In this document: positions 2,442-33,238 of the stretch, in pieces
How positions within the stretch are numbered: the stretch's first letter is position 1
Layout: each line of letters begins with the position of its first letter
Assembly: GCF_003725955.1 (NCBI RefSeq)
Contig: NZ_QIBZ01000006.1
Span: forward strand, 1 to 64,000
Direction of reading: 5' to 3'
Origin: Slackia isoflavoniconvertens
Lineage (GTDB): Bacteria > Actinomycetota > Coriobacteriia > Coriobacteriales > Eggerthellaceae
Length of the DNA: 64,000 nt
The notes under the pieces: generated by a model
Database searches by the model: none
What the model was told of the DNA's origin: nothing
What the model saw: the letters and a program-made list of their open reading frames with translations, nothing else
Made by a program: the position numbers and the translations under genes

Positions 2442-4759
2442 AACGGGCTATGTTGCATGGCGTGAAGGCCTTGGGGCGCGTTGGGCGAGCAAGCAATACC
2501 GCCAATGCCGCCTTGCTCGGGGAGGGCTTGGTGGAAGGCCCAACCGATCGAGCGACTCCTCGATTTCCGCGGCGCCCATCTTTGCCCGTTTCGCTTGTTG
2601 TTGCGGTTATCGCTTGGGTATCGCTTGCGGCGTGGCAGGCGCTTGCGATTGCGGGCGGCTACGTAACGCGTGATGTGCCACGGGGCCTTAAGTCGGGGGA
2701 ATATGTGCTTGAGGTGGTGGAAGACGCCAAACTCGGTTCATACGGCTATTCCGTGCATGCGCGCGTGCTTGATGCGAACGGCGTTGCCCGCGACGTGCTG
2801 GCGACATATGGCGACGCCGATATAGAAGGCGACGCGCGCCTGTTCGCCCGGCAACGAGTTGCGGCGAGCGTATCGTTTTCGGAATTTTCCGAAGCATCGT
2901 TTTCTCGATATGCCTCAAAGGGGCTTTGTGCGCGTGCGAAATTAACGCAGGCCACGATTGTTGACGGCGCGGGCCCTATCTCGTTTGTTGTATCGGCGCG
3001 CTGTTTCGCCCGCGACGTGTTTGACGAGTTTGAAGGGCGCGGGGCGGCGCTTGTGAGGGCGATTGTGATAGGCGATAGAAGCAAGCTCGAAGAGGGCGGC
3101 CTGTACGACGATGTGAAAACGGTAGGCTTGGCGCATATGGTTGCTGTTTCGGGGGCGCATCTTTCGGTAGTCGCGGCGCTTGCGGGCGCCTTGCTTGCAC
3201 GAGCACGTATGCCGCGCGTGGCGCTTTCGATTGCGTTGTGCCTGTTCTATTGCGCCTATGCAGCGTTTACGGGATTCTCGGCGCCCGTCATTCGCGCGGC
3301 ACTCATGGCGGCTGTGGTGGTGAGTGCGATTTGGGGCGCTCGCCGTTCGTCGTCGCTTGCGGCGCTTGGGGTGTGCGTATGCGTTTTGCTTGCTGTGCAT
3401 CCAGCGAATGCGCTGTCGTTGTCGTTTTTCCTTTCAGCTGCATCGACTTTGGGAATCGTGGCGCTTGCGCCCCTCATACAGGCGTGGTTTGAAGTTGCAT
3501 TTGGGCGACGGGCAGAAACGCTGTGCCAGACGTGTGCGCTTACGACAGCGGCGAATATCCCCATCGCGCCCGTTACGGCATGCGTCTTTTCACGCGTGCC
3601 GCTCATGTCGCCTTTGGCGAATATGATTGCGGCGCCCCTGTTCACGGTTTTCATTGCAGGTGGTCTTGTTGGGCTGGGGCTTACCGCTTTGTATGCACCG
3701 GTGGGAAAGGCGATTCTTGCGGCGATCATCGCCTTGGCCCAGGCGTTATCCGTCTTCTTGGCGGCGCTTGCGCGCGTTCCCTTCGCGTCTCTTCCATGTT
3801 CGGCCGACATGTGGGTTGTTGTCACCCTTTCCGCATCGGCGTTTGCAGGCCTGTGGGCTATATGGCCCCGTCCAACGCGAGCGCGTGCAGTGGGGGTTGC
3901 GGCCGCTACGGCGCTTGTGGTGGTGGCGTGCGTCGTGGTGGCTCCATTGCTCGAGCCCGACGAAATCGTCGCGCTCGATGTGGGGCAGGGCGATGCGATT
4001 CTGGTGAAAAGCGAAGGGGCTTCACTTTTGGTTGACACGGGCAATCAGGATGCGATGCTCGCGGCGGCGCTCGCTCGAACGCATACGCCGCATCTTTCAG
4101 GCGTCGCGATTAGCCACCACGACGACGACCACTGCGCTTCGCTTGACTCTCTTGCGTCCACCATTGCCGGGTCGTGCGTGTACGTCGCGCGAGAAACGTA
4201 TGCGTGTCCATGCGATGGTTGCGCCGATTTGCTCGCGCAAGCGCGCAACGTTTCGGGGCGCCAGGCTGTGGGGCTTGACGTGGGTGATGAGATACGCGTG
4301 GGAAGGTTTACATGCCGCGTAGTGTGGCCCCGGGCTTTTTCGGATGCGGGTGGCAATGCCGACAGCCTGTGTTTGCTTGTGAGCTACGAAAGCGAGGCGG
4401 GGCCGCTTACCGCACTGCTCACGGGCGATGCTGAGGCCGATCAGATTGAGAAAATGGCCCAAAGCGGCGGCACGGGCTCTTCAGGGGCAGTGGCCGTGAA
4501 TGTGCTGAAGGCGGGCCACCATGGCAGCAAGGCTGGAATGACGCCAAAGCTCGCCCAGGGGCTTTCGGCAAGCATCGCCCTTGTGAGCTGCGGCGCGAAC
4601 AATCGTTACGGGCATCCGGCCCAAGCGACGATTGACGCTCTTGAGGCTGCTGGGACGCGCGTCTTTCGAACCGATGAGCTGGGCGATATCGCCTGCGTGT
4701 TTTCCCGAGAGGGAATTGAGGTGCGGCCTCAGTATGCGAGCGGGGTTGCCTTAGAATAA
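2438..4759 (+). CDS. comEC: DNA internalisation channel protein ComEC/Rec2
   Basis: ComEC forms the inner-membrane channel that passes single-stranded transforming DNA. The protein is about 773 residues and has the three-part family layout. These are an N-terminal DUF4131/OB-like region, a central competence domain with many membrane spans (including LAHMVAVSGAHLSVVAALAG), and a C-terminal metallo-beta-lactamase-like domain. The last contains DVGQGDAILV, SHHDDDHCASLD and KAGHHGSKAGM, which supply the metal-binding His and Asp positions. The ATG at 2438 overlaps the comEA stop (ATGA). A TTG six bases upstream is also possible. holA follows 39 bases later, a common arrangement. Confidence 0.93.
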   Translation: MKRAMLHGVKALGRVGRASNTANAALLGEGLVEGPTDRATPRFPRRPSLPVSLVVAVIAWVSLAAWQALAIAGGYVTRDVPRGLKSGEYVLEVVEDAKLGSYGYSVHARVLDANGVARDVLATYGDADIEGDARLFARQRVAASVSFSEFSEASFSRYASKGLCARAKLTQATIVDGAGPISFVVSARCFARDVFDEFEGRGAALVRAIVIGDRSKLEEGGLYDDVKTVGLAHMVAVSGAHLSVVAALAGALLARARMPRVALSIALCLFYCAYAAFTGFSAPVIRAALMAAVVVSAIWGARRSSSLAALGVCVCVLLAVHPANALSLSFFLSAASTLGIVALAPLIQAWFEVAFGRRAETLCQTCALTTAANIPIAPVTACVFSRVPLMSPLANMIAAPLFTVFIAGGLVGLGLTALYAPVGKAILAAIIALAQALSVFLAALARVPFASLPCSADMWVVVTLSASAFAGLWAIWPRPTRARAVGVAAATALVVVACVVVAPLLEPDEIVALDVGQGDAILVKSEGASLLVDTGNQDAMLAAALARTHTPHLSGVAISHHDDDHCASLDSLASTIAGSCVYVARETYACPCDGCADLLAQARNVSGRQAVGLDVGDEIRVGRFTCRVVWPRAFSDAGGNADSLCLLVSYESEAGPLTALLTGDAEADQIEKMAQSGGTGSSGAVAVNVLKAGHHGSKAGMTPKLAQGLSASIALVSCGANNRYGHPAQATIDALEAAGTRVFRTDELGDIACVFSREGIEVRPQYASGVALE

Positions 4760-4798
4760 GCAGTCGGAAAAGATGGAAGATCGAGGAGTCAGAAGGCT

Positions 4799-5767
4799 AT
4801 GGCCGAAGTGAACTTGCTGCCGGCGTATTTGATCAACGGCGAAGACCAGCTCAAGCGCGAAACCGTGCTCAAGCGCTTGCGTTCGCGCCTTGAAGCGATG
4901 GGCGACCTCGATTTCAACTGCGATACGTTCGACGGCAAAGATGCACTGGGCGGCGATATCGTGGCTGCGTGCAACACCATGCCCTTCGGCATCGACAAGC
5001 GCCTCGTTATCGTGCGAAATGCCGACGATTTGAAGAAAGCCGATTCTGAAGCGCTTGTCGCGTATCTCGCATCGCCAGCCGATTTCACGGTGCTGGCGCT
5101 GCTTGCGAATAAGCTTGCGAAAAACACGCGCCTCTATAAGGCTGCGGCGGCGGTTGGCCCTAAGGCGGTCATCGATTGCGCACCGCGCAAGGCGTACGAA
5201 TTGCCGTCTCAGGTGCGCGCCATGGCGACATCGCATGGCATCGCCATGACTGATTCGGCCGCGAAGCTTTTGGTCGAGCTTGTGGGCGAAGACACGGTAC
5301 ATCTCGATGCCGAGTTGAAGAAAATCGCGCTCGCTCACGCGGGCGCTCAGCCCGTTGCGCCCGAAGAGGTGTCGGCGCTTGTCACGCGCACTTCGCAGGC
5401 GAAGCCATGGGATTTCACCACGCCATTCACACAGCGAAATGTTGCCGAATGCGTACGCGTGCGAGCGAAGCTCGGCGATACCTCGGCGTATGCGCTTATC
5501 GGCTTTTGCGTGAGCTCGTTGCGCGAAATGCTCACGTGCCATGCGCTTGCGGCTCGCGGGCAAAGCGGCCCTGGGCCCTTGGCGAAGCAGCTGAAGATGC
5601 CCGATTGGAAAGCGAAGAAGGTGGCGGCTGCAGCGCGTTTATGGTCTGCTGCGGAGCTTCGCGCAGCCCTTTCAAGTGCCCGTGATTGCGAACGCGCGAT
5701 GAAAAGCGGCGCCGATGCCGAGGGCGTGTTCTTCGATTGGGCCATTTCGACCTGCGCGAAGAAGTAG
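4799..5767 (+). CDS. holA: DNA polymerase III subunit delta
   Basis: HolA is the clamp-loader delta subunit, which opens the beta sliding clamp. The 322-residue product has the usual opening (LLPAYLINGEDQLKRETVLKRL). A degenerate AAA+ region follows (FNCDTFDGKD, TMPFGIDKRLVIVRNADDL), and the C-terminal collar domain is helical (PWDFTTPFTQRNVAEC onward). As expected for delta, no functional Walker A motif is seen. It sits directly downstream of comEC, the usual context, and is started by an ATG preceded by GGAG. A cluster of hairpins lies just past the stop. Confidence 0.92.
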   Translation: MAEVNLLPAYLINGEDQLKRETVLKRLRSRLEAMGDLDFNCDTFDGKDALGGDIVAACNTMPFGIDKRLVIVRNADDLKKADSEALVAYLASPADFTVLALLANKLAKNTRLYKAAAAVGPKAVIDCAPRKAYELPSQVRAMATSHGIAMTDSAAKLLVELVGEDTVHLDAELKKIALAHAGAQPVAPEEVSALVTRTSQAKPWDFTTPFTQRNVAECVRVRAKLGDTSAYALIGFCVSSLREMLTCHALAARGQSGPGPLAKQLKMPDWKAKKVAAAARLWSAAELRAALSSARDCERAMKSGADAEGVFFDWAISTCAKK

Positions 5768-25155: not shown

Positions 25156-25322
25156 TCAAAAAGGTGCTCGAATGTGGCAAAAAGTACACCCGGCTAGTGA
25201 AACTATAAACTGTGAACGAACGAGCAGCTTTCTGACCTGGTGATATGGGAAGCAGCGAATGGAAGGCTGCACGATGCGTAGACTTTGGCATGAGAATATG
25301 CCACATTCGAGCACCTTTTTGA
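25156..25322. repeat. Perfect 24-bp inverted repeat around the kinase start region
   Basis: Bases 25156-25179 and 25299-25322 are exact reverse complements (TCAAAAAGGTGCTCGAATGT and four more bases), extendable to about 30 bp with one indel and one mismatch. The 119-base interior holds TATAAA at 25204-25209 and the proposed kinase start at 25259. It may be a regulator site pair, a mobile remnant, or a large RNA stem. Confidence 0.8.
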
Positions 25323-27172
25323 ACAATTGTCGGGTTTACGCTGCTGGCAGTATGGATGAAACGCTGCCCATGTTTTACGATGGCTCTATGCAAAATATAA
25401 AGGAACATACTGCCGATTTTGACGTTGCCGACTTTGAGCCCGAAGCGAACGAGCATTCATGCCCTCCGTGCGCCGTGGGGCCCTCGTTGCATGGCGACCG
25501 GGTCGGTGAACGGGCCGCGGGCCATGCTGGCGGCTGCGCCGTCGATCGAGTCGCAGGCTATGCTGACGATTGTGGCGACAGTCAAGCTGCTCGTTGCGTC
25601 GAGGGCCAAACTCGATGCTATGCTGGAGCCCAGGAAGAAGGCCGTGCTGGAGATCGAGTAGGGCGACGTTTTGGAGGCCGGGCCGACGACCGCGCTGAAA
25701 ATCGGGCCGAAAAGGATGATGGGAACTGCGTCGGAGGTCATTCCGAGAGTTGTTCTGAAGGTTGCGCCGAGGTTCGCGCTGGAGGCCGGGCCGACGATCG
25801 CGCCGAGGTTCGTGCCGGAGGTCGGACCGACGGTCGTGCACAGGCCGCTTCCCATTCGCAACTCGATGCTTCCGGCGAGGAAGACTTCGCCGGTTTCGTG
25901 AAGCACAATATCGCGTCGGGCGGTATTTTCGGTGGGGTGCCGGGAAAAGGCGCCGCGCCCCAGAATCGCAGCGCGACCGATTGGGGAATCGATGTTGCCG
26001 TCGCCCTTGTCGCCTTTGCGTTTGGCTGCGCCCAAATGGTGATTACCGCTTCTTCCGTTGTGCACGTTGATGCCGGTCCCTATGGATCGAGCTGGGTTAA
26101 TTACGTCCCTAATATTTATGCGTATTTGGCGGTTGCCCTTACGACTGCGCCGTTGATTCTTCGTCGTGAGGCACCGTGGTTCGTGCTCGCGCTCACGCTT
26201 GCATGCTATGTCTTCCTGTCGAATTCCATGGGCGGAACGGTTTCGCTTTCGCCCATAGGTCCCATCGTGGCTGTTTATACCGTGGCAAGCGAACGCGCCC
26301 GCGGCGAGGCTCTTGCGGCTGCGGCTGTGGTGGGCGTGTGTGCTGCGGTGGTTCCCATGGGCGCTTCAAGCGTCGCCATGGCGCTTGTGATGCGCATCGA
26401 AAACGTGGCATTTGTGGTGGTTGCCGCGTTGGGCGGTTTCGGCGTGCGCATGTACCATGCCTATATGGAAGAGACGCGCCGCCGCTTGGCTGAAGCTGAG
26501 CGAACGCGCGAAGAGCTTGCTGCGCGCCGCGTTGCCGACGAGCGCGTGCGCATCGCGCGTGAAGTGCATGACATCACGGCGCATTCCCTTTCTGCGGTCA
26601 CCATTCAGGCGGCAGCGGCGGAGCGCCTCATCGATTTGAACCCTGCCGCAGCGAAAGAGGCGATTGCCGATATTCGCTCGGTTTCGAAGTCGTCGCTCGA
26701 TGAAATTCGCTCACTTATTGGAGTGCTGCGCGGCGACGAGGCAGCCGAGCATGCCCCTGCCGAAGGCACCGAGCGCATGGGCGACGTCGTGTCGTTCTTG
26801 CAGCGCGCTGGCATCGAGGTCGATTTTGACGAAAGCGACTACGACAAGGCGCAGGTGCCCGCATTCGTCGATATGGCGTTGTTCTCGCTCGCGCGCGAGT
26901 CGGCTACCAATGCCGTGCGTCATGCCCATGCCGCACATATCTGCATTGAGTTGGCATCTTCCCCTTTGAAGGCAGTGCTCGTGTTTTCCGACGATGGCGT
27001 CGGCATGGGCAGTGGGGTGCGCGAGCATGCCGAAGGCCATGGCCTTGAGGGCATGGGCGAGAGAATCGAAGCGCTCAATGGCGCATTCACCATAGAAAGC
27101 GAGCCTGGTTGCGGATGCACGATTCGCGCCGAAGTACCCTTGGAGGTGGTACACGATGACGAGCATCGATGA
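25259..27172 (+). CDS. Two-component sensor histidine kinase (NarL-partner, HisKA_3 type) with low-complexity N-terminus
   Basis: The 637-residue product has several membrane segments at about 240-400 (WGIDVAVALVAFAFGCAQMV, YLAVALTTAPLILRREAPWF), then a dimerisation domain. The phospho-acceptor motif is RIAREVHDITAHSLSAVTIQ, with the His near residue 437. The HATPase_c domain includes SLARESATNAVRHAHA, VFSDDGVGMGSG, GLEGMGERIEALNGAF and GCTIRAEVPL. Residues about 75-205 are a strange Gly/Arg/Asp/Cys-rich tract with 12-residue repeats. The start at ATG 25259 is supported by GGGAAG upstream, but a start just before the membrane domain cannot be excluded. It overlaps the response regulator by 17 bases. 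The signal is unknown. Confidence 0.85.
   Translation: MEGCTMRRLWHENMPHSSTFLNNCRVYAAGSMDETLPMFYDGSMQNIKEHTADFDVADFEPEANEHSCPPCAVGPSLHGDRVGERAAGHAGGCAVDRVAGYADDCGDSQAARCVEGQTRCYAGAQEEGRAGDRVGRRFGGRADDRAENRAEKDDGNCVGGHSESCSEGCAEVRAGGRADDRAEVRAGGRTDGRAQAASHSQLDASGEEDFAGFVKHNIASGGIFGGVPGKGAAPQNRSATDWGIDVAVALVAFAFGCAQMVITASSVVHVDAGPYGSSWVNYVPNIYAYLAVALTTAPLILRREAPWFVLALTLACYVFLSNSMGGTVSLSPIGPIVAVYTVASERARGEALAAAAVVGVCAAVVPMGASSVAMALVMRIENVAFVVVAALGGFGVRMYHAYMEETRRRLAEAERTREELAARRVADERVRIAREVHDITAHSLSAVTIQAAAAERLIDLNPAAAKEAIADIRSVSKSSLDEIRSLIGVLRGDEAAEHAPAEGTERMGDVVSFLQRAGIEVDFDESDYDKAQVPAFVDMALFSLARESATNAVRHAHAAHICIELASSPLKAVLVFSDDGVGMGSGVREHAEGHGLEGMGERIEALNGAFTIESEPGCGCTIRAEVPLEVVHDDEHR
25766..25837 (+). 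repeat. 36-bp in-frame tandem repeat in the kinase gene
   Basis: Two adjacent 36-base units encode AEVRAGGRADDR and AEVRAGGRTDGR. They form the clearest part of a longer degenerate repeat region (about 25480-25845) that stays nearly stop-free in three frames. Confidence 0.8.
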
Positions 27173-27956: not shown

Positions 27957-27968
27957 CTGCTATTATGG
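27957..27968 (+). promoter_or_regulatory. Possible extended -10 element for uvrA
   Basis: TTTCTGCTATTATGG contains TG-n-TATTAT, an extended -10 form. It lies about 40 bases before the chosen GTG start. No clear -35 box or SOS (LexA) box was found, so this is tentative. Confidence 0.35.
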
Positions 27969-28003
27969 CGCGGTTGCAAATACTTGGCAGAAAGGTCGAG
28001 ATC

Positions 28004-30880
28004 GTGGCCAGCGATTCCATCGTCATCAAGGGCGCGCGTGAGCATAACCTGAAAAACGTCGACGTTACCATCCCTCGCGATAAGCTCGTGGTTATTACGG
28101 GCCTGTCGGGCTCGGGCAAGTCGTCGCTCGCGTTTGACACCATCTACGCCGAGGGCCAGCGCCGCTATGTGGAAAGCCTTTCCGCCTATGCCCGCCAATT
28201 TTTGGGGCAAATGAACAAGCCCGATCTTGATTCCATTGATGGCCTCTCTCCTGCGGTGGCGATTGACCAGAAAACCACGTCGAAAAATCCACGTTCAACG
28301 GTGGGCACTACGACGGAAATCTACGACTACCTGCGCCTTCTGTTCGCGCGCGTGGGCACGCCGCATTGTCCTGAATGTGGGCGCGAAATCAAGGCTCGCA
28401 CCACCGACCAAGTGACCGACGAGATTCTTGCGCTCGGCGAAGGTAAAAAAGCGCTCATCTTGGCGCCCGTCGTGGTCGGACGTAAGGGCGAGCACACGAA
28501 AATTCTTTCTGACCTGCAAAAAGAAGGCTTCTCGCGCGTGCGTATCGACGGCGTGGTGCAGCGTTTGGAAGGCGAGCCCGTCAAGCTCGACAAGAAGTTC
28601 AAGCACACGATCGACGTTGTGGTCGACCGCGTGGTGTTGAAGGCGTCTGCGACGAGCCGCATTGCCGAATCGGTTGAAACGGCGACGAAGCTTTCCGACG
28701 GTCGCGTAGTGTGCCACTTGGTCGATGAAGAGGTTCAAGAAGCCGACGGGCAGAAATCGACTCCGGGCTTCACGACGGTATGGCCGGGCGACCATTTCTA
28801 TTCGCTTGCCCTTGCATGTCCCGAGCATGGCCATTCGATGGATGAGCTGCAGCCGCGCGACTTCAGTTTTAATGCCCCCTATGGCGCCTGCCCCGATTGC
28901 GCGGGCCTCGGCAGCCGCGAGGAAGTCGATCCAAGCCTGCTCATCCCCGACCCGTCGCTGTCGCTGAACGAGGGCTGCATTGCGCCGTTCGCAACGGGCA
29001 ATTATTACCCCCAGGTTCTTCGCGCGGTATGCAAACATATGGGCGAAGACCCGGCAACCCCGTGGGAAGATTTGAAGAAGAAAACGCGCGATGTGCTGTT
29101 GTACGGCCTTAAGAGCGAAAAAGTTTTCGTCGACTACGTGACCGTCGACGGCCGCGAAACGGGCTGGAGCATCGATTGGGAAGGCGCCTGCGAAGCGGTT
29201 ATGGGCCGTTATAAAGACTCGACGAGCGATTCCCAGCGCGAAAAATACGAGAAGTATTTCGCTACCATTCCATGCGCGTCATGCGGCGGAAAGCGCCTGA
29301 AGCCCGAGATTCTCGCCGTGACTGTTGGCGGCAAGAATATCCACGAAGTATGCGACATGTCGGCCGCCGATGCGCTGGAGTTCTTCAGCAATCTGCAACT
29401 CGACGAGCGCCAGGCGTTCATCGCCGCGGCTATCGTGAAAGAGGTGCGTGCGCGCCTGCAGTTCTTGGTCGATGTGGGTCTTGATTATTTGACGCTCGAA
29501 CGTGGCACGGCGTCGCTTTCAGGCGGTGAGGCTCAGCGCATTCGCCTGGCCACGCAGATTGGTGCTGGCCTCATGGGCGTGTTGTACATTCTGGACGAGC
29601 CGTCCATCGGCCTGCATCAGCGCGACAACGAGCGCCTCATCGCCACGCTTGAACGCCTGCGCGATTTGGGTAACACGGTTATCGTCGTGGAGCATGACGA
29701 AGATACCATTCGCCACGCCGACTATGTTATCGATATGGGCCCTGGTGCGGGCGAGAAGGGCGGCCATGTGGTTGCCGCGGGCACTCCTGATGAAGTGGCG
29801 AGCGCCGAAGGGAGCTTCACGGCCGACTACCTGTCGGGCCGCCGCCGCATCGAGGTGCCTGAGGTTCGCCGCAAGCCCAAACGAGGCGCCATCAAACTCA
29901 CCGGTGCTTGCGAGAACAACCTGAAGAACGTGTCCATTTCCGTTGAGCTTGGCACGCTTACCGTGGTCACGGGCGTTTCGGGGTCGGGCAAAAGCTCGCT
30001 TATCACCGACACGCTTGCGCCTGCGCTCGCGAACCGCATCAATCACGCGCGCCATCGCACGGGCGAATACCGCAAGCTCACGGGCTACGAGGCGCTTGAT
30101 AAGATTGTCGATATCGACCAAAGCCCCATCGGTCGCACGCCGCGTTCGAATCCCGCGACGTATATCGGCTTGTGGGATGACATTCGCGCGCTGTTTGCGA
30201 GCACGCAGGAGGCGAAGGCACGCGGCTATGCGCCTGGCCGCTTCAGCTTCAATGTGAGCGGTGGCCGCTGCGAGGCGTGCAAAGGTGATGGCCAAATCAA
30301 AATCGAGATGCACTTCTTGCCCGATGTTTATGTGCCGTGCGAGGTGTGCGGCGGCATGCGCTATAACCGCGAGACCTTGCAGGTGACATACCGCGGCAAA
30401 AACGTGTACGACGTGCTCGATATGACGGTCGACGAGGCGCTCGAGTTTTTCAAGAACTTGCCGGGCTTGGCGCGTAAGCTCCAAACGCTGCACGATGTGG
30501 GCTTGGGCTACATTCGATTGGGCCAACCTGCCACCACGCTTTCGGGCGGCGAGGCTCAGCGCGTGAAGCTCGCGAGCGAGTTGCAGCGTCGTCAAACGGG
30601 TAAAACGTTCTACGTTCTCGACGAGCCCACCACGGGCCTGCATATGGAAGATGTGCGGCAGCTCCTTGATGTTTTGCAGCGTCTTGTCGATGCGGGGAAT
30701 ACGGTGCTCGTTATTGAGCATAATCTTGACGTTATTAAGACCGCCGACCGATTGATCGACCTCGGACCCGAAGGAGGCTCGCGCGGTGGTACCATTGTGG
30801 CCACGGGTACGCCCGAGCAGGTTGCGAAGGTCCCCGAAAGTCACACGGGTCGCTTCTTGCGAGATATTTTGAACGTCTAG
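28004..30880 (+). CDS. uvrA: Excinuclease ABC subunit A
   Basis: UvrA is the damage-recognition ATPase of nucleotide excision repair. The protein is about 958 residues with two ABC modules. Walker A motifs are [14 protein letters not shown] and [14 protein letters not shown]; signatures are [16 protein letters not shown] and [16 protein letters not shown]. Zinc-finger cysteines are seen in [27 protein letters not shown] and [11 protein letters not shown] chose GTG 28004 because GAAAGG precedes it and it gives the normal start [17 protein letters not shown]. An ATG at 27965 overlaps a TGCTATTAT sequence that looks like an extended -10 box. Confidence 0.95.
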
Positions 30881-30919: not shown

Positions 30920-33238
30920 ATGCAGAAATCGCGGCCGCATTTCGCACGCGGCGTGCTTTTCGCTCTTATTGGAGGCGTGAGCTGGGCTTTTTCTGGCACA
31001 TGCGCAGAATTCCTTTTTGAGACGCAGCATCTCTCGCCGGCGTGGGTCACGTCGGTGCGATGCATGATTTCGGGCGTCGTGTTCCTGATTCTTGCGGCCA
31101 TCATCGATCGCGAGCGCTTTCTCGAAGCCGCCAAAAACAAGCGCGCGTGGGTTGCATTCGCGGTCAATGGCCTTTTCGGCACGGTGTTTTGCCAGTTCAC
31201 GTACCTCACGTCCATCAGCTACACCGATTCGGGCACTACGACCGTGCTTTCGATGGTGGGCTTGGCCTTGGTCATGGGCTACAGCTGTCGGGCAAGCCAT
31301 CGCCTGCCACGAAAACGTGAGGTGTTCGGCCTCATTCTCACGCTTGTCGGCGTCGTGCTCATTGCAACGAATGGCGACATTTCGAGTTTGGCTATGCCGC
31401 TGCCCGGCCTTGTGTGGGGCTTGCTTTCGGCTGTGGGCCTTGCTGCGTACAACATCATCCCCGTTAAGCTTATCGGACGCTATGGCAGCCTGGTCACCAT
31501 GGGTTTCTCGATGTTCGTGGCGGGCGTTTCCATGTGCTTTATCGAGCAGCCCTGGACGGTTTCCGTCGACGTGAATACCGAAGTGATTTTGGGCATGGCT
31601 GCGATTATCGTGGTTGGCACGGTCATCGCAGCGTGGATCTATATGCAAGCCATTGCCGATATCGGCGCGGTGAAGGCATCGATGATCGCCGCGGTCGAAC
31701 CTGTAGCTGCTACTATTTTCACGGTCACGCTGCTTGGGACGCGTTTCGAGCTCGTTGACCTTGTTGGCTTTGCGTGCATCGTTGCCATGGTGCTGCTTGT
31801 GAGTTCGAAACCCGATGACGAGCAAAAGCTTGCGGAAGATTTGGCAGGCAAAACAGGGGAAGAGGATACGGTTCCAACTCCCGAGTCCATTGAGCTCGCC
31901 CATGCTGAGGCCGCGATTCGTGCGGCGCGGGCTGTGCCGGGGTCGCAGGCTGCGCTTGAGGAAGTTCCCGCTCCCGAACCTGTTGTGCTGTGGGACCCTG
32001 CCATTTCCCAGAAGGCACGCGAAAAAGCCAACAGTGGCGAGCTTTCTCTGGAGGAGATGATTTGCTCTCCCGAAGCGGCCCATTTGGTTGACGCGAAGTC
32101 AAATACGAAAGACACCGTGCGTCATGGCGTGCGTGAAGGCATAGCGCTTGCCGTGTTCGGGTTTCTTGTTGCCGTCGGTTTCATAGCGCTTACAACGTAT
32201 ATTTCCGCTGGACATAATTTGAACTATGCCTCTACGGGCATCGACGACATCGCGGGCAATATGTCGGGGTATGGCGTGATTTTGTATGAGGGCACGGTTG
32301 AGTCTTCAGCTTCTGCCGAGTCTTCTTTGGCGAGCGACAATGCGCTGGGCTCCAACGAATCGGCTCGTATTGGCGAAAGCGCCAAATCGGACGAAGGCGC
32401 CAAAGAGGGCGCGTCGAGCACGAAAGGCGAATCGGACGAGCAGTCTGTCAAAGGCTTCGTGAAAATGGCTTTGGGCCTCGATTCCGAAACCGAGGCGGGC
32501 GTTCCGGGTTCGGCGAAGGCTTCGGAATCGACGGGCGCATCGGCCTCGACGTCTGGTTCGGCTTCCGACGATGCGAATGACCCCATGACGATGGACGAAG
32601 CGAAGGAAATCTACGAGGCGAAGAAGGCGACGGTTCTCGGGCTCGATGTGAGCGATTTGGAGCAGTACCAATTCGGTCGTATCGTCATGAAGGGCGGCCA
32701 TACCTATGGCATCGTGAGCATTACCGATGACGAGCTTGCCGCGCTTGATTTGCCGAAGGCGGCCACGACCACGAAAACCACCATTACGACATCGCGCGAG
32801 TCCCGCACATCGTCAGTGGGCTCGAGCGCGAAGGTTTCCACGAAGAGCGCGTACGCGAATGTGGCCGAACTGCTCGCCGATGTCGACGCCGATTCTATTG
32901 ACGAAGAGCTGGTTGCCCGCGTCGGTGACGTCATCGACCATTTCCGCAATGCTGGCGTTGATATCGTTGTCGTACTCACGCACGATGTTCGTCCCATGGC
33001 GGCGATCGATGGCGCCGATGTGGTGATTACCGTGCGAACCGATGAGCGTTTTTCGCAAAGCCAAATGATTAGCCATACGTTGTACGTCGATACACCCGAG
33101 GTCGGCTCGGTGGGCGCCTTGCTCGTTGCTCCCGGCAACGTGGTTTCGAGCCGCGTGCTTACGGGTGAAACGACGAGTGCGGGCGCGTCGACGAGCGCCG
33201 AGGGCAGCAATTCGTCGTACGTTGAGAAGGCCGATTAG
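30920..33238 (+). CDS. EamA/DMT transporter fused to a Ser-rich linker and CapA-like C-terminal region
   Basis: The product is about 772 residues. Residues 1-300 are a ten-helix EamA (drug/metabolite transporter) protein with two repeats (GVLFALIGGVSWAFSGTCAE; later AAIIVVGTVIAAWIYMQAIA, KASMIAAVEPVAATIF). A charged linker leads to another membrane helix at about 415-435 (GIALAVFGFLVAVGFIALTT). A low-complexity Ser/Ala/Glu tract follows, then a folded-looking part including AGVDIVVVLTHDVRPMAAID and HTLYVDTPEVGSVGALLVAP. The last part recalls CapA or nucleotidase-type phosphoesterases but lacks clear metal ligands. ATG 30920 follows AAAGGGGGATG. EamA proteins are normally about 300 residues; substrate and function are unknown. 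Confidence 0.8.
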   Translation: MQKSRPHFARGVLFALIGGVSWAFSGTCAEFLFETQHLSPAWVTSVRCMISGVVFLILAAIIDRERFLEAAKNKRAWVAFAVNGLFGTVFCQFTYLTSISYTDSGTTTVLSMVGLALVMGYSCRASHRLPRKREVFGLILTLVGVVLIATNGDISSLAMPLPGLVWGLLSAVGLAAYNIIPVKLIGRYGSLVTMGFSMFVAGVSMCFIEQPWTVSVDVNTEVILGMAAIIVVGTVIAAWIYMQAIADIGAVKASMIAAVEPVAATIFTVTLLGTRFELVDLVGFACIVAMVLLVSSKPDDEQKLAEDLAGKTGEEDTVPTPESIELAHAEAAIRAARAVPGSQAALEEVPAPEPVVLWDPAISQKAREKANSGELSLEEMICSPEAAHLVDAKSNTKDTVRHGVREGIALAVFGFLVAVGFIALTTYISAGHNLNYASTGIDDIAGNMSGYGVILYEGTVESSASAESSLASDNALGSNESARIGESAKSDEGAKEGASSTKGESDEQSVKGFVKMALGLDSETEAGVPGSAKASESTGASASTSGSASDDANDPMTMDEAKEIYEAKKATVLGLDVSDLEQYQFGRIVMKGGHTYGIVSITDDELAALDLPKAATTTKTTITTSRESRTSSVGSSAKVSTKSAYANVAELLADVDADSIDEELVARVGDVIDHFRNAGVDIVVVLTHDVRPMAAIDGADVVITVRTDERFSQSQMISHTLYVDTPEVGSVGALLVAPGNVVSSRVLTGETTSAGASTSAEGSNSSYVEKAD

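Follow-up and report, generated by a model that had tools for sequence, protein, structure and literature searches.

Carriers of the EamA/drug-metabolite transporter family (PF00892) contain two EamA repeats, and both of their termini lie inside the cell. The phosphoesterases related to 5'-nucleotidase, SoxB, YunD and YmdB (PF00149) form a separate group, within which genuine nucleotidases carry the motifs TNDxHG, GNHE and GHxH alongside a 5_nucleotid_C domain. The phosphoesterase fold has also been put to use for binding, not catalysis, in Vps29 and the polymerase B subunits, which are cytosolic subunits of eukaryotic complexes: Vps29 has a non-catalytic phosphoesterase fold and acts as a scaffold in retromer (PMC9636581), whilst Dpb2 contains an inactivated phosphoesterase domain (PMC7308368). 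Here we describe a protein of Slackia isoflavoniconvertens that resembles these systems in different parts of its length. On balance, we favour the reading that an eamA gene and its neighbour have been joined in one frame, and that the second product is a tethered, non-catalytic ectodomain with a nucleotidase fold which acts by binding.

The window analysed is a stretch of 64,000 nucleotides, in which a single uninterrupted open reading frame of 772 aa is found on the + strand (30920-33238; Table 1). It starts with an ATG at 30920, with AAAGGGGG just before it, and its stop ends at 33238; 39 bases separate it from the end of uvrA, and a gene for an M18 aminopeptidase lies 29 bases downstream. 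Pfam PF00892 matches the N-terminal part as two repeats between aa 10 and about 299 (E 6.5e-32, 111.1 bits against a cut-off of 28.2), and by hydropathy ten hydrophobic segments lie within aa 11-294, with one more, the eleventh, at aa 407-425. Compared with EamA/drug-metabolite transporters, the protein thus has some 470 additional residues, which come from the neighbouring gene; about 170 of them form a folded core and the remainder is linker. The first-pass annotation had described an EamA carrier with about 460 extra residues, ordered as ten helices, linker, eleventh helix, low-complexity tract and C-terminal part, and both the fusion and this order are found again by hydropathy and composition; the two words that it quoted, IVVVLTHDVRPMAAIDGADV and HTLYVDTPEVGS, both occur in the protein.

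Table 1. Features of the fused reading frame and its upstream neighbour (positions in the window; aa, residues of the 772-aa protein)
Feature	Positions	Strand	Evidence
uvrA, conserved upstream neighbour	27965..30880	+	Pfam UvrA domains, synteny
Fused ORF, 772 aa: EamA carrier and membrane-anchored phosphoesterase-like ectodomain	30920..33238	+	
EamA/DMT ten-helix unit, aa 10-299	30947..31816	+	Pfam, hydropathy, 61-62% identity to congeners' separate EamA genes
Cytoplasmic linker, aa 300-406, holds the join	31817..32137	+	Alignment, codon scores
GGAGGAGATG, possible weak internal start (Met380), spacing 2 nt	32050..32059	+	Read from sequence
Eleventh transmembrane helix, aa 407-425	32138..32194	+	Hydropathy; helix 3-32 of AlphaFold2 model m88251db24f2a
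Juxtamembrane helix and first core strand, aa 427-459	32198..32296	+	Conservation in family alignment
Ser/Ala/Glu-rich disordered insert, aa 460-556	32297..32588	+	Low pLDDT
Phosphoesterase-like core, middle part, aa 558-603	32591..32728	+	Model pLDDT above 90, fold match
Thr-rich variable insert, aa 610-645	32747..32854	+	Alignment, AlphaFold2 model
C-terminal part of the phosphoesterase-like core, aa 648-749, spanning the positions of motifs IV and V, ligands not conserved	32861..33166	+	Profile, model, fold match

The added sequence, termed here the C-part, corresponds to a gene that stands alone in congeners. Within the linker, which is acidic, aa 380-406 align with the N-terminus of the congeners' separate C-part gene, and the eleventh helix is the signal-anchor helix of the separate homologues. 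The juxtamembrane segment that follows has the pattern GHxxNxAxxxIDDxxGxMxGYxxIxYxGT and ranks among the best-conserved stretches of the C-part family. The Ser/Ala/Glu-rich insert differs widely in length between homologues (S, T, A, E and G make up 62% of aa 433-560), and the Thr-rich insert is mostly restricted to the genus Slackia. The topology of EamA carriers and the charged stretch preceding helix 11 lead us to infer that the ectodomain lies outside the cell, in agreement with the earlier proposal that the extra part is probably extracellular.

A single-sequence search detected the sequence after aa 300 in 28 of 61 relatives, and a profile search recovered the C-part in 102 of 138 Eggerthellaceae genomes, whilst three congeners (G002, G009 and G011) lack it. 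The relatives include Eggerthella, Paraeggerthella, Gordonibacter, Rubneribacter, Adlercreutzia, Raoultibacter, Senegalimassilia, Slackia and others, and all those that are named are Eggerthellaceae or records of the same class. In a sample of 396 genomes from the phylum, there was no clear C-part outside the Eggerthellaceae and only weak matches were obtained. Three of the four weak matches from outside the family are genuine 5'-nucleotidases with TNDxHG-like, GNHE, SHxG/GHxG and GHxH motifs, and the fourth (L061, in G271) is a P-type ATPase with chance similarity; three weak matches checked inside the Eggerthellaceae are likewise true 5'-nucleotidases with the same motif set. Neither Pfam nor NCBIfam holds a family for the C-part (the best weak match, to SoxB at E 0.0017, is far below its cut-off), a PDB sequence profile search with the C-part gave nothing meaningful, and a scan of genome contigs with the entire 772-aa protein returned zero relatives. 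The C-part is an undescribed family, a variant of a known phosphoesterase fold, and the fusion is an event of one genome; the earlier remark that no described family has this layout is right as far as Pfam and NCBIfam go, though what it describes is a fusion in one genome and neither a family in itself nor a subfamily of EamA. Five close pairs of C-part homologues gave dN/dS values of 0.13-0.45 (linker counted in), which indicates that the family is under purifying selection, though it is probably non-catalytic.

In the relatives examined, the C-part is encoded by its own gene as a single-helix protein, and it lies downstream of uvrA in every locus where uvrA is visible. Between uvrA and the C-part there may be one carrier gene or two (EamA or EamA-GNAT), a small GNAT gene, or both kinds. 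In the congeners G008 and G005 the EamA genes are separate, 61-62% identical to the EamA of the fused protein, and their stop overlaps the start of the C-part as TGATG. This start/stop overlap, the proximity of EamA to the C-part gene in many genera, the fusion itself and the fusion elsewhere of the carrier at this locus to a GNAT acetyltransferase would all suit an ectodomain that is a dedicated accessory of the carrier, binding or processing the exported compound, with the fusion fixing an existing partnership. However, in about 18 of the 40 loci with both uvrA and the C-part, six congeners among them, there is no EamA in between, and in three loci (L089, L092 and L093) the C-part sits directly between uvrA and uvrC with overlapping or near-zero spacing. 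As the C-part gene often has no EamA neighbour, it more probably has an independent role than one dedicated to the carrier, and we regard the accessory reading as unlikely; the first-pass suggestion that the extra part binds or processes what the carrier exports loses ground to the same loci and to the separate gene of the relatives. The direct placement between uvrA and uvrC in those three loci, together with the constant position downstream of uvrA, could instead be taken to mean that the C-part serves a DNA-damage or envelope-stress response with uvrA and uvrC, and that its joining to EamA is incidental. A predicted location outside the cell would keep the protein apart from DNA, and the co-location may be historical; this reading is somewhat more doubtful still.

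Other features of the uvrA locus were also recorded. EamA genes with a C-terminal GNAT acetyltransferase domain occur there in Eggerthella, Gordonibacter, Enteroscipio and others (for example L065:1910-3478 and 3513-5258, L078:3723-5318 and L083:3020-4651), often as a tandem pair, and in several genera a small separate GNAT gene lies just upstream of the C-part gene (L071:5440-5964, L074:5348-5911 and L081:5310-5885). The EamA-GNAT fusions suggest a coupling of acetylation to export. They resemble the S. isoflavoniconvertens protein in that a carrier at the uvrA locus is extended at the same C-terminal end, but the GNAT extension is a cytoplasmic acetyltransferase whereas the extension here is a membrane-anchored ectodomain. 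In a tree of EamA sequences the fused protein and the two congeners group weakly (80/78) on long branches, and we therefore do not claim that the carrier descends from an EamA-GNAT ancestor. A literature search found nothing on EamA in the Eggerthellaceae or on EamA domain fusions, and no report of an EamA-GNAT fusion was among the matches listed. Upstream in the window, a histidine kinase ORF has an N-terminal stretch of about 220 residues (25259-25980), repeat-like and composed of Arg, Gly, Ala and Asp, that is missing from congeners and contains tandem DNA repeats at 25759-25836; either the start is wrongly assigned or the low-complexity extension is genuine.

Relatives with two genes, and a fused form found in one assembly only, could also mean that a sequencing or assembly error removed a stop or a frame change and that the cell makes two proteins. 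Against this, codon scores trained on the other genes of the 64-kb window are best for frame 0 in all 120-base windows between 30920 and the end of the frame, the EamA/C-part junction included, and the join shows neither a stop nor a switch of frame. This makes a simple frameshift error unlikely, and we consider the error reading improbable. In the profile scan of the 138 Eggerthellaceae genomes, the open frame at the C-part measures 785 aa here against at most 535 aa elsewhere. The weak internal start at 32057, as read from the DNA, could still give a separate C-part; with this start present and the fusion seen in one assembly, one polypeptide from 30920-33238 is the most probable reading.

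The fold of the ectodomain was predicted with AlphaFold2 from a 31-row alignment, for aa 400-752 (model m88251db24f2a) and for a compact homologue from L089 (m19229afdeeb0). The former has a mean pLDDT of 74, with 154 residues at 90 or above, so that disorder of the extra region is confined to the linkers. Both models match the catalytic domain of SoxB, 5'-nucleotidases and YunD, with YmdB next: the aa 400-752 model superposes on SoxB 2wdd with Z 11.2 and rmsd 4.0 over 168 residues, the best match of the compact model (SoxB/5'-nucleotidase catalytic domain) has Z 13.8 and rmsd 4.0 over 173 residues, and the best Foldseek E values are 3e-5 and 2e-5, respectively. A profile comparison of the C-part with six true 5'-nucleotidases, which is independent of the fold search, gave a probability of 89.7% and E 1.9e-6 over 72 columns around motifs IV-V; the predicted fold and the sequence profile agree, and the order of core elements is also shared. 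None of the 31 C-part members matches Pfam Metallophos (PF00149), and the SoxB thiosulfohydrolase model TIGR04486 reaches at most 16.7 bits against an NCBIfam cut-off of 550. CapA was considered as the closest relative, but neither the fused protein nor the 31 members has a Pfam match to CapA (PGA_cap), and the fold matches listed show YmdB and 5'-nucleotidases in its place, though a structural likeness to CapA may lie beyond that list. Of the initial description as a CapA or nucleotidase-type phosphoesterase with lost ligands, the nucleotidase type and the lost ligands are upheld by the models and the profile, and the closest matches found are SoxB, YunD, 5'-nucleotidase and YmdB, not CapA specifically.

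Unlike these enzymes, the C-part is anchored by an N-terminal helix, has disordered inserts and, in the 772-aa protein, is not followed by 5_nucleotid_C. Its first strand reads IxYxGT where nucleotidases have TNDxHG, with no conserved Asp or His, and a much shorter stretch, lacking GNHE, links motifs II and IV. These differences at motifs I-III are read from sequence and model, whilst the profile alignment covers motifs IV and V. In that alignment the His of motif IV corresponds to His688 ('LTHD') in the fused protein, the other 30 sequences having P, S, N, D or A in this column, and the His pair of GHxH (motif V) is R706/D708, with Q, S or T (mostly Q) and E elsewhere. The alignments thus have the motif IV and V ligands as lost and those of motif I as not conserved. 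Continued enzymatic function of the ectodomain, whether through a remodelled metal site or by a mechanism that needs no metal, is highly improbable: it has the fold of catalytic phosphoesterases and in the fused protein motif IV still has its His, but this His is present in one of 31 sequences, the GHxH positions are substituted throughout, no His or Cys is conserved in the core across the 31 sequences, and the acidic residues conserved in at least 90% (D442, D681 and D700) are juxtamembrane or beside core strands, off the metal-binding motifs. Alignment and models together make the ectodomain probably non-catalytic, and a scaffolding or ligand-binding role likelier than an enzymatic one. By analogy with Vps29 and the polymerase B subunits, a likeness at the level of the fold, it may act by binding.

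In the favoured reading, adjacent genes for an EamA carrier and a single-pass membrane protein would have become one reading frame in S. isoflavoniconvertens. The second protein would comprise a short cytoplasmic N-terminus, one helix, a juxtamembrane segment that is strongly conserved, a flexible tether whose length varies and an extracellular domain, the last with the predicted catalytic fold of 5'-nucleotidase/SoxB metallophosphoesterases minus the conserved metal-binding residues, and it would work as a tethered scaffold or ligand-binding module. The fusion would keep this module beside the carrier, which might be neutral, the two being already co-translated, or might place the module at the exit site; two overlapping genes may simply have been joined by evolutionary accident. 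The membrane face of the C-part holds some of its best-conserved elements (the helix, GHxxN, IDD and GxMxGY), and our guess is that a membrane-proximal partner or self-association accounts for it. It is a long shot that the family represents lineage-specific dead nucleotidase-fold ectodomains, tethered and encoded between uvrA and uvrC, that sense or bind an extracellular nucleotide or sulfur compound, tied here to EamA and gating or capturing its export.

EamA carriers at the uvrA locus have been extended at the C-terminus repeatedly, by GNAT in other genera, and the fusion in S. isoflavoniconvertens offers a natural hint at the place where the ectodomain may act. The analysis also defines an unnamed family in about three quarters of the sampled Eggerthellaceae, including the human-gut genera Eggerthella and Gordonibacter; its genes lie in a conserved setting of DNA-repair genes and are under purifying selection, and its products have a predicted enzyme fold with the active site lost.
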